Part shown: piece after piece, positions 11,715-14,801 of the stretch | Position numbering within the stretch: the stretch's first letter is position 1 | Layout: each line of letters starts with the position of its first letter | Assembly (NCBI RefSeq): GCF_023256435.1 | Contig: NZ_JAGDXM010000041.1 | Coordinates: 1-38,536, forward strand | Length of the DNA stretch: 38,536 bases | Direction of reading: 5' to 3' | DNA from: Thermoplasma sp. | GTDB taxonomy: Archaea > Thermoplasmatota > Thermoplasmata > Thermoplasmatales > Thermoplasmataceae | Translations under genes and position numbers: made by a program | The notes under the pieces: generated by a model | Database searches by the model: none | The model's input: only the letters and a program-made list of their open reading frames with translations | What the model was told of the DNA's origin: nothing

Positions 11715-11903
11715 ATCAATCCTCGTTAAAGAATAGATCTTAACTGCGCTGATGATGAAATCAAATACGCTTAGATGTAGAGCCATATTTTTAAGAGATT
11801 TTTCTGTTATCTTTTGTTTCCATACCAGTACCGTAGAGAGGAATGTCAGGGGTACCTTGATTTTCACCTTGTTTCGAATGTAATAACTAAACATCTTCAA
11901 GAA
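11715..11903. other. spacer between epimerase gene and ribosomal operon promoter
   Basis: No gene is supported. A TGATGATGA resembling a C box (near 11750) has no matching D box. T-rich runs near 11790-11820 could terminate the epimerase transcript. Confidence 0.4.
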
Positions 11904-11913
11904 ATATTAATAA
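11904..11913 (+). promoter_or_regulatory. TATA box of the ribosomal protein operon
   Basis: ATATTAATAA is centred about 22-25 bases before GGG at 11928-11930, where the structured leader begins. This places the transcript start at or near the leader's first base pair and predicts an unusually long leader of about 150 bases. Confidence 0.6.
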
Positions 11914-11927
11914 CCATGTTTGCATTA

Positions 11928-12080
11928 GGGCTGTAAGTGCTCGATAGAGCTGTCTTTACGGTGCTTTGAAAGCGCCATAAAGCCATACACGTTTGGGCAA
12001 CTCCTGCGAGAGTCCCAGAGTGGTCGATCTATTATTTTAGATCGGCATACAACGTGTAACGGTATAAGGTGGTGAATTAG
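11928..12080 (+). ncRNA. structured 5' leader RNA of the uL3 operon, two tandem three-way junctions
   Basis: The first module is closed by GGCT / AGCC (11929-11932 with 11981-11984). It holds one arm ending in a GCTC-GATA-GAGC hairpin and a second hairpin GGTGCTT / AAGCGCC. The second module is closed by a perfect ACACGTT / AACGTGT stem (11987-11993 with 12051-12057). It encloses TGGG..ACTC / GAGT-CCCA (11994-12017) and CGATCTA / TAGATCG (12025-12044). A ribosome binding site GGTGGTG follows before ATG 12081. A leader like this in a mostly leaderless genome suggests autogenous or ligand control of ribosomal protein synthesis. I do not recognise it as a known riboswitch. A processed stand-alone RNA is also possible. 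Confidence 0.6.
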
Positions 12081-13076
12081 ATGGCGACGCCTCATCATTC
12101 GAGAAGGGGGTCAATGGCATATTACCCCAGAGTAAGAGCGAAGAGTTTAGATCCAAAGATCCGTAGCTGGCCTGAGATAAAGGGAGAGGTCAAGGTGCAG
12201 GGGTTCGCTGGATTCAAGGTTGGAATGACGCATGTGGAGATGATAGATTACAGGAAGAAGAGCGTCACAGCCGGACAGCCGATCCTTGTGCCTGTAACGG
12301 TCGTGGAGGTTCCGCCTCTCGATGTTATCGGTTATCGTCTTTATGACGAAGATCCGGAGGGGAATCTGGTCGTTACCTATGAAACATGGGCTAAGGATCT
12401 GGATAAGGAGATATTCAGGAAAATTCCTGAAATCAAGAAAAATGTTGAAAGAGAACCGCCTGAATCATATGCTGATGTTAGGATAATAGTTGCTACAAGG
12501 AACAAGGATGTAGCCGGCATACCATCAAAGAAGCCGGAGATATTCGAATTGAGGATCGGCGGTGGCAATTCACTTAAGGATCGTCTGGACTACGCTAGGA
12601 ATCATCTGGGTAAACAGATAATTTTCAGCGATTTCTCCAAGGCTGGAAAGTTTGTTGACGTGGTTTCAGTGACGAAAGGCAAAGGATTCACAGGCCACGT
12701 TAAGAGATTTGGAGTAAAACTGCTTCCAAGAAAGAACAGAAAGCACAGGAGAATGATAGGTACGCTTGGTCCATGGCATCCTGACTGGGTAAGAAACACG
12801 GTCCCTCAGGCAGGTCAGATGGGATTCCAGCAGAGAACCATAAGCAACGTAAGAGTCATCAAATATGGGAGCAAGGATGATGTAGATGCTATAAATGTCC
12901 GTGGCGGTTTCCTCCATTACGGCATGGTGAAGAATGACTACGTTCTTCTTTTCGGTTCAATACCCGGACCTGCAAAGAGACTGATAAAGATGAGAGACCC
13001 AGCAAGGCAGAAGGTGCCAGACATAGAGGAAGTCAAACTTGAGTATGTATCATTGGAATCAAAACAGGGTGATTGA
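12081..13076 (+). CDS. rpl3: Large subunit ribosomal protein uL3
   Basis: A 331-residue archaeal/eukaryotic-type uL3, first gene of the long ribosomal operon. It begins with ATPHHSRRGSMAYYPR, the usual archaeal opening, and carries SVTKGKGFTGHVKRFGVK, the loop reaching toward the peptidyl transferase centre, and GTLGPWHPDWVRNTVPQAGQ. Length is normal for archaea. The ribosome binding site GGTGGTG lies about 8 bases upstream. Its stop codon overlaps the TTG start of uL4. As a primary rRNA binder it could be the protein that senses the structured leader, but that is inference. Confidence 0.97.
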   Translation: MATPHHSRRGSMAYYPRVRAKSLDPKIRSWPEIKGEVKVQGFAGFKVGMTHVEMIDYRKKSVTAGQPILVPVTVVEVPPLDVIGYRLYDEDPEGNLVVTYETWAKDLDKEIFRKIPEIKKNVEREPPESYADVRIIVATRNKDVAGIPSKKPEIFELRIGGGNSLKDRLDYARNHLGKQIIFSDFSKAGKFVDVVSVTKGKGFTGHVKRFGVKLLPRKNRKHRRMIGTLGPWHPDWVRNTVPQAGQMGFQQRTISNVRVIKYGSKDDVDAINVRGGFLHYGMVKNDYVLLFGSIPGPAKRLIKMRDPARQKVPDIEEVKLEYVSLESKQGD

Positions 13077-13840
13077 ATACGAAGGTACCAATTTATTCAA
13101 TTTCTGGTGAAACTAAGGGAGAGATCGATCTTCCAGAGATATTCGATACAGAGGTTAGAGAGGATCTCATAAGGAAGGCCTTCAGAGCTATTTCGCTTTC
13201 TATGAGGCAACCCTATGGTTCATCCCCTCTAGCTGGAATGAGGAGAGTGGGCCATACCACCAGACCAGGACTTGGCATTTCGAGAATGCCAAGGATAGCG
13301 GGTGGATCCAGGGTGGTCGGCATAGCCAGTGCTGTAGGTGGAAAAAGTGCGCATTCACCAAGGGTCACCAAGAATCTCTACGTCAAGATAAATGACAAGG
13401 AAAGAAAGATCGCAAAGTACTCTGCAATTGCACTCACAGCATCATCCGAAGCTGTCAAAAAGAGAGGACACAGATTCAAGGATGATCTTAAGCTTCCGAT
13501 CGTGGTGGAAGATGGTCTCGAAGGTATAGCGAAGACGAAGGATGCCATAGCACTGCTGAAGAATATAGGGGTGTACGAGGATATTGAAAGATCCAGTGAA
13601 GGAAAGCATATCAGAGCGGGTCGTGGAAAGATGAGAGGAAGAAAATACAGGCAGCCAAAGAGTGTGCTGATAGTTGCAAAGAACTCTTCCGCGCTGAAGG
13701 CATTCAGATCTCTACCTGGGGTTGATGTGGCATCTCCGAACTCGCTCAGCATAAGGAAACTTGCCCCGGGTGGCGTGGGCGGCAGGCTTACCATATTCAC
13801 TGAAGGTGCGATTGAATCACTGAAGGAGGTGAATCCATGA
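13073..13840 (+). CDS. rpl4: Large subunit ribosomal protein uL4
   Basis: A 255-residue archaeal uL4, which lines the peptide exit tunnel. The long basic loop with RQPYGSSPLAGMRRVGHTTRPG and later RAGRGKMRGRKYRQPKS is diagnostic. The frame appears to start at TTG 13073, which overlaps the uL3 stop (TTGA). A GGGTGA sequence abuts that codon with no spacing, so initiation probably depends on coupled termination of uL3. No better start exists before the conserved N-terminal strand (VPIYSISGE). The stop region overlaps uL23 by 4 bases. Confidence 0.95.
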   Translation: MNTKVPIYSISGETKGEIDLPEIFDTEVREDLIRKAFRAISLSMRQPYGSSPLAGMRRVGHTTRPGLGISRMPRIAGGSRVVGIASAVGGKSAHSPRVTKNLYVKINDKERKIAKYSAIALTASSEAVKKRGHRFKDDLKLPIVVEDGLEGIAKTKDAIALLKNIGVYEDIERSSEGKHIRAGRGKMRGRKYRQPKSVLIVAKNSSALKAFRSLPGVDVASPNSLSIRKLAPGGVGGRLTIFTEGAIESLKEVNP

Positions 13841-14091
13841 AGGGCGATGTGATAATATCACCTCTTTCTACAGAAAAAACTGCTTTAATGGCTGAAAAGG
13901 AGAATAAGCTGACGCTGATAGTCAGGAGAGAAGCCAATAAGGAAATGATCAAGAAAGAGGTAGAGGAAAGGTTCGGAGTGAAGGTTGAGGAGATCAACGT
14001 ACTCATAACGAAAAAAGGAAAAAAGGCAATAGTAAAGCTGGCAAAGGAGTTCTCGGCTGAAGAGATAGCCGAGCGTATTGGTGTGTTCTGA
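13837..14091 (+). CDS. rpl23: Large subunit ribosomal protein uL23
   Basis: An 84-residue uL23, which sits at the tunnel exit and helps dock SRP and SecY. It starts with [20 protein letters not shown], the typical STEK motif, and continues with a beta-alpha fold of normal archaeal length. The ATG overlaps the uL4 stop (ATGA) and has GGAGGTGA just upstream. It is part of the uL3-uL4-uL23-uL2 order conserved across archaea and bacteria. Confidence 0.96.
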
Positions 14092-14099
14092 GGTGTATT

Positions 14100-14801
14100 A
14101 TGGGTAAACATATAATCCCGCAGAGAAGAGGACATGGAAGCCTGGTTTACAGGAGTCCAAGTCACAGGCATCTGGCAGATATAAAACATGTTGCGCCAGG
14201 ATCATACGTGGTAAAGGACATAATCCATGCGCCAGGCAGGAACGCCCCGCTCTTGGAATTGATGGGCAACGATGGAAAGAAGGCATACCAGATAGCTTTC
14301 ACCGGAGCCTATGTTGGGCAGAACATAGTCGCTGGAAATGTGGATAGCGTTGCGCCTGGCACAACAACGGTTCTCGCAAATATACCTGACGGAAGCTATG
14401 TGTACAATATAGAGAGCAGTCCGGGAGATGGCGGAGAATTCTGCAGAAGTGCAGGTACGTTTGCACTGGTCGTCTCACACGGACAGCATGTGACACTGAA
14501 GCTGCCGTCCGGTAGAATGAGAGATTTCGATCCAAGATGCAGAGCAACGGTTGGTGTGGTGGCAGCTTCCGGTCTTAAGGATCCGCCGATCCTGAAGGCA
14601 GGTACGCATGTTCATTACCTTAGGAGCAAGGCGAAGCGTCCGTATACGGTAAGGGGTGTTGCCATGAACGCTGTGAATCATCCGCATGGAGGCGGAAACC
14701 ACCAGCATGTAGGTAGGCCAAGTACCGTTGGAAGGAACGCTCCACCAGGAAGGAAGGTAGGAAGGCTTTCACCGAAGAGGAGGAGAGTAAATGGTCGTTA
14801 A
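14100..14801 (+). CDS. rpl2: Large subunit ribosomal protein uL2
   Basis: A 233-residue uL2, which bridges the subunits and is needed for peptidyl transferase activity. The C-terminal motif [20 protein letters not shown] contains the conserved histidine region, and the N-terminus ([20 protein letters not shown]) is the archaeal form. GAGGTG precedes the ATG by a few bases. The last 11 bases overlap uS19. Confidence 0.97.

Follow-up and report, generated by a model that had tools for sequence, protein, structure and literature searches.

Introduction

Autoregulatory leaders are known before archaeal and bacterial ribosomal-protein (r-protein) operons other than the one described here (PMC7247131). 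Few cis-regulatory RNAs have been confirmed or even predicted in archaea; the covariation-supported archaeal r-leaders include eL15-Euryarchaeota (RF03144) and the S15 leaders of Halobacteria and Methanomicrobia (PMC7247131), all of which precede genes other than uL3. RF03135 (L4-Archaeoglobi; Eckert and Weinberg 2020), rated borderline by its own authors (PMC7247131), has been proposed for the same operon (uL3, uL4 and following genes) as the element described below, in another archaeal lineage. Like the new element, it is drawn as a closing stem with two hairpins at a junction and has a GGG-UCAA-type inner loop. Here we analyse the region upstream of uL3 in a 38,536-nucleotide stretch of Thermoplasma sp. 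DNA (the window) and its counterparts in related genomes.

Results

A folded leader precedes the uL3 operon

An earlier note on this DNA had proposed that positions 11928-12080 form an undescribed folded leader RNA, consisting of two tandem three-way junctions, which fills the space before the uL3 operon. The predicted folding energy of these 153 nt is -53.9 kcal/mol, compared with -39.8 +/- 4.1 kcal/mol for dinucleotide-shuffled sequences (z -3.4; 0 of 200 shuffles equalled it), which bears out the claim of a folded leader. The leader does span the gap between a TATA-like box and the ribosome binding site (RBS), and uL3, uL4, uL23 and uL2, assigned by Pfam, follow directly. The GATA-tetraloop hairpin described in the note was located at 11939-11950. 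With regard to the tandem junctions, the 3' one stands and is deeply conserved, whereas the 5' one is not confirmed: this part is conserved within the genus only and reads as two hairpins in a congener. The features of the locus are as follows.

11902-11913, + strand: TATA-like box AAATATTAATAA, probable operon promoter, from its sequence and from the TATA boxes upstream of the element in relatives
11933-11981, + strand: genus-only 5' domain, absent from other genera
11982-12063, + strand: conserved core, three-way junction P1-P2-P3, by covariance-model match
11982-11991, + strand: P1 5' strand, GCC-A-UACACG, in which A11985 contributes the 5' side of the invariant A/AC internal loop
11995-12016, + strand: P2, GGG-CAA-CUC, loop, GAG-U-CCC; CAA/N internal loop with 11998-12000 opposite 12013
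12020-12050, + strand: P3 hairpin of variable sequence, with its loop at 12032-12037; missing in family f12
12053-12063, + strand: P1 3' strand, CGUGUA-AC-GGU, in which A12059-C12060 contributes the 3' side of the A/AC loop
12068-12074, + strand: ribosome binding site GGTGGTG, from sequence
12081-13076, + strand: uL3, 331 codons, first operon gene (Pfam PF00297)
13073-13840, + strand: uL4 (Pfam PF00573)
13837-14091, + strand: uL23 (Pfam PF00276)
14100-14801, + strand: uL2 (Pfam PF03947)

A DNA similarity search returned nothing usable beyond the genus, and the loci of relatives were taken by extracting the region upstream of uL3. A covariance model (R1) was built from 36 cores of the window's order, and a second (R2) from a wider alignment. 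Both match the window at exactly 11982-12063, with E-values of 2.9e-11 (R1, whose training set contains the window sequence, so that this value is not independent) and 8.0e-12 (R2). The end of P1 lies 4 nt from the RBS.

Comparison with known RNA families supports the view that the element is undescribed, as it is absent from Rfam 15 and from the papers that could be searched. Rfam 15 gave nothing convincing in the window leader even at E 10, none of 18 loci from across the class matched an Rfam family at E 1, and the searchable literature held nothing relevant on leaders in this lineage. The possibility that the element is a divergent RF03135 was rejected in both directions: 0 of 61 related genomes scored over the RF03135 cut-off, and R1 had no meaningful match at an RF03135 member.

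Covariation defines a conserved core

In other genera and families of the order, the region before uL3 carries the pattern NCC-A-KACRC, GGG-CAA-UGC...GCA-W-CCC, a variable hairpin and GYGUM-AC-GGN, in which P1 is formed by pairing of the first and last strings. The P1 sequence is ACCAUACAC/GUGUAACGGU in most of the window's family, GCCAGACGC/GCGUCACGGC in family f5 and CCCAGACAC/GUGUCACGGG in family f4, so that these differences are compensatory. Such changes in relatives, which the earlier note had suggested looking for, proved to be numerous across the order, class and phylum. In an alignment of 59 distinct sequences (A5), pairing is 98.7% in P1, 99.4% and 97.0% in the two P2 helices, and 67.9% in P3, whose registration in A5 is poor. 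A5 has 161 cells in which both sides have changed, compared with 57 +/- 6 after shuffling; when the partner columns are slid by 1-3, pairing falls from 89% to 31-44%. Given the alignment without a structure, RNAalifold recovers P1, P2 and two P3 pairs, although the alignment had previously been fitted to the model and the result is not fully independent. Counting on a tree gave 37 compensatory double changes over 20 pairs, or 1.85 per pair, whereas 2579 other column pairs averaged 0.23; this tally is indicative, the tree having been derived from the same alignment. Since the first MAFFT alignment puts P3 out of register, this hairpin was judged by folding each sequence separately; the P3 segments have a mean folding z of -2.5 (75 sequences). 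We conclude that the core at 11982-12063 is a real and deeply conserved three-way junction.

Several positions are invariant in 59 of 59 sequences: C2, C3, A4, A6 and C7 in the P1 5' strand, G97, A100, C101, G102 and G103 in the P1 3' strand, and G16, G17 and C43 in P2. Because of this invariance, the A/AC loop of P1 is the best candidate for a recognition site. In one genome missed by the models (G039, locus L282), reading by eye shows one invariant C-G pair of P1 as U-A. In two members of family f12 (L141 and L151), P3 is wholly gone and P1 and P2 join into a single irregular hairpin, in effect a minimal form of the element found in nature; the absence of P3 in these members points to P1 plus P2 as the essential part.

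Distribution in archaea

In the class, R1 matched 184 of 300 genomes at E 0.1 or better, and 132 of these 184 fall outside the training order. Each genome has one copy except G031, which has two; its second, higher-scoring copy sits at a contig end (C20:14-91) and may reflect contamination, a locus duplicated in the assembly or a second operon. At the level of the phylum, R1 matched 90 of 145 genomes and R2 96 of 141. Among the carriers are two single-contig genomes of the genus (1,564,906 and 1,584,804 bp), by size those of T. acidophilum and T. volcanium. The element is widespread in the window's archaeal phylum and probably ancestral to it.

Families f15 and f37 appear to be without the element. 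Within the class, the large family f15 gave no R1 match, which apparently represents a loss of the element and could serve as a natural control. Inspection by eye of four f15 genomes (L152-L155) found a TATA box close to the start codon, a short upstream region and no element. In the phylum that contains the Archaeoglobi, R1 gave one marginal match (E 0.01) in 148 genomes, not on the contig of uL3. The element was not found at 46 uL3 loci of Methanosarcina, Methanomicrobia and relatives, by reading and by R1 search; there, the region before the gene preceding uL3 was covered by 1.5 kb flanks and by whole-genome search.

The element lies upstream of uL3

In the genomes searched with R1, uL3 was located independently. 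Among the comparable matches listed, all were on the contig and strand of uL3 in both sets (92 of 92, 12-137 nt upstream; 72 of 72, 39-307 nt upstream). One genome is common to the two sets, which leaves 163 distinct genomes; in 163 of 163 with both on one contig, the element thus lies 12-307 nt upstream of uL3. Two matches located at the ends of contigs depart from this placement, as does a weak second match (E 0.026). The gap between element and uL3 is 12-19 nt in the window's family and mostly ~40-90 nt in other orders and classes. The element therefore combines two hallmarks of r-leaders, a conserved structure backed by covariation and a consistent place before r-protein genes, and its position before uL3 upholds the reading of this region as leader RNA. 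Because the place before uL3 is fixed and the copy number almost always one, we regard the element as cis-regulatory rather than as a processed stand-alone RNA, an option that the earlier note had raised and that these observations disfavour.

A second hairpin, GCGAGR-UUAGCGAAGA..-YCUCGC, with a UUAGC-containing loop, is present between P1 and uL3 at L119, L127, L242-L255 and other loci. It occurs in several non-Thermoplasmatales lineages, an example being GCGAGG-UUAGCGAAGAGA-CCCUCGC, and in one genome reads GUGAGA/UCUCAC instead, a compensatory change. The extra hairpin suggests that the expression platform may differ elsewhere while the sensor is the same.

Promoter and genus-only 5' domain

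Of 76 relatives, 56 have a perfect match to the TATA 8-mer YTTAWATA in the 150 nt before P1, compared with 4 of 76 shuffled sequences, and the distances from TATA box to P1 cluster at ~27-33 and ~45-53 nt. With transcription starting ~25 nt past the TATA box, P1 would begin no more than a few tens of nucleotides into the mRNA. The Thermoplasma box is farther away, ~73 nt upstream of P1, because of the extra 5' domain at 11933-11981; judging from its position, the transcript in the window is likely to start near 11930-11940. A Thermoplasma RNA-seq dataset exists (PMC6877293).

The 5' domain can be folded into hairpins at 11933-11959, with the GATA loop, and at 11960-11976; an alternative helix pairs CUUUA (11954-11958) with UAAAG (11978-11982). 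In the most distant congener, whose whole leader is 69% identical, the 5' part reads as two hairpins with the UAAAG/CUUUA/UAAAG triplet in common, and the GATA loop is not kept. In the window (11933-11982), the triplet permits two mutually exclusive pairings, one of which takes up the first nucleotide of P1. A role of these alternative pairings of the Thermoplasma 5' domain as a switch is speculative.

Candidate ligands and resemblance to rRNA

Which protein might bind the leader is uncertain. Among the possible ligands we would place uL4 at the head, followed by uL23, with uL3 ranked after it and on a par with all remaining candidates together. uL4 is favoured on the basis of r-leader precedent, as an established ligand of bacterial r-leaders and by a rule that was applied in PMC7247131. 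In the genomes compared, uL4 is close behind uL3, so that gene order cannot separate the two. uL23 is favoured by a lead from the sequence, namely the likeness of P2 to a hairpin in domain III of 23S rRNA (E. coli 1314-1338, T. acidophilum 1391-1415), which carries GG-CAA-UG...CA-N-CC and so agrees with the P2 consensus. In T. acidophilum 23S this hairpin, UGG-CAA-UGU...UCA-G-CCG at 1391-1415, holds the sole CAA 3x1 loop among 43 internal loops parsed in the Rfam-aligned parts (~2.2 kb), and the full CAA motif arose in 2 of 300 shuffled 23S sequences, a comparison made post hoc, after the leader had been seen. PMC9935924 reports that the density of uL23 emerges together with helices H49-53. 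The two hairpins differ in the base opposite CAA, which is G in 23S but mostly A or U in the leader (G in 2 of 59 sequences), and P1 has no counterpart in the domain III hairpin. An r-leader often, although not always, mimics the rRNA site of its regulator; when T. acidophilum 23S was scanned with covariance models and by geometry, neither the whole element nor P1 had a mimic there.

L7Ae is not supported as a ligand. Its target, the kink-turn, has a 3-nt bulge and next to it tandem sheared G-A pairs, whereas the A/AC and CAA/N loops are without tandem G-A pairs and are flanked by Watson-Crick pairs.

Discussion

We think it likely that this stretch serves the uL3-uL4-uL23-uL2 operon as its 5' leader and acts as an autoregulatory element through which an operon protein blocks translation. 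A putative mechanism is that an r-protein of the operon, when in excess over rRNA, would bind the invariant parts of the leader, with predicted contacts at the A/AC loop of P1 and its flanking C-G pairs and at the CAA/N loop of P2. Bound or stabilised in this way, P1 would sterically exclude the 30S subunit from the RBS 4 nt away, and this exclusion would shut down translation of the operon. The data show the element itself, with its fold, its conservation and its constant position before uL3, whereas its transcription (judged from the TATA position), its binding by a protein and the block of translation are inferred. P1 is ~40-90 nt away from the start codon in other orders and classes, where direct occlusion of the RBS cannot alone account for control. 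What counts against autoregulation by an operon protein is that scans of T. acidophilum 23S gave no clear rRNA mimic of P1 and that some lineages (f15, f37) appear to be without the element.

Other readings have to be set against these data. That the leader merely sets mRNA stability or the efficiency of translation start, with no specific ligand, would agree with its position at the transcript 5' end, as placed by the TATA boxes, and with a P3 that is variable and dispensable. We nevertheless judge it unlikely, since a constitutive stabiliser needs no internal loops that are invariant throughout a phylum. It is improbable, too, that the element responds to a signal other than an r-protein (a metabolite, ion, trans-acting RNA or assembly factor) and so ties ribosome production to that signal. 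Ligand-binding RNA can also look like this, with invariant internal loops in a compact junction, and the T. acidophilum 23S holds no convincing mimic of the whole element; against this, the element occurs before uL3 only, never before metabolic genes, and the classical control of r-protein operons is by their own proteins. That a metabolite, ion or trans-acting RNA governs the main r-protein operon across the phylum by way of such a non-protein sensor is likewise improbable, and we know of no archaeal case in which ribosomes are controlled in this manner.

The remaining two readings concern the nature of the RNA itself. Release of a stable non-coding RNA with its own function is very improbable: the element does fold by itself, but it is always in cis before uL3, is otherwise unseen in these genomes and matches no known RNA family. 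We give almost no credence to a fold that arose by chance or belongs to promoter DNA rather than RNA. The initial observation came from a single sequence, whereas the compensatory changes now far exceed those in shuffles, slid controls and the tree-based background, and the TATA boxes precede the element.

Autoregulation by an operon protein thus being the preferred reading, the element would place such control in several classes of one phylum, ahead of the largest ribosomal operon, and makes the balance of archaeal r-proteins against rRNA a directly testable question. The analysis also puts in doubt RF03135, the catalogued archaeal leader for the uL3 operon. In the Archaeoglobi genome JdFR-42, a match to RF03135 (L239:1501-1585, 45.6 bits) lies within a protein-coding gene (L239 1095-1943, 282 aa; PF02598, RNA methyltransferase) that overlaps the uL3 start. 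Being inside a coding gene, the match is not in an untranslated leader in JdFR-42, and this placement, seen in one genome rather than in a survey, fits the borderline rating given by the authors of the family.

The uL4-binding leader of the bacterial S10 operon precedes the same genes (uL3, uL4, uL23, uL2 and others) as the new element, and its operon is controlled by one of its own proteins, as we expect here. To our knowledge, the S10 leader contains neither the A/AC loop of the closing stem nor the CAA/N hairpin. The element before the archaeal uL3 operon is probably an undescribed switch that tunes ribosome production.
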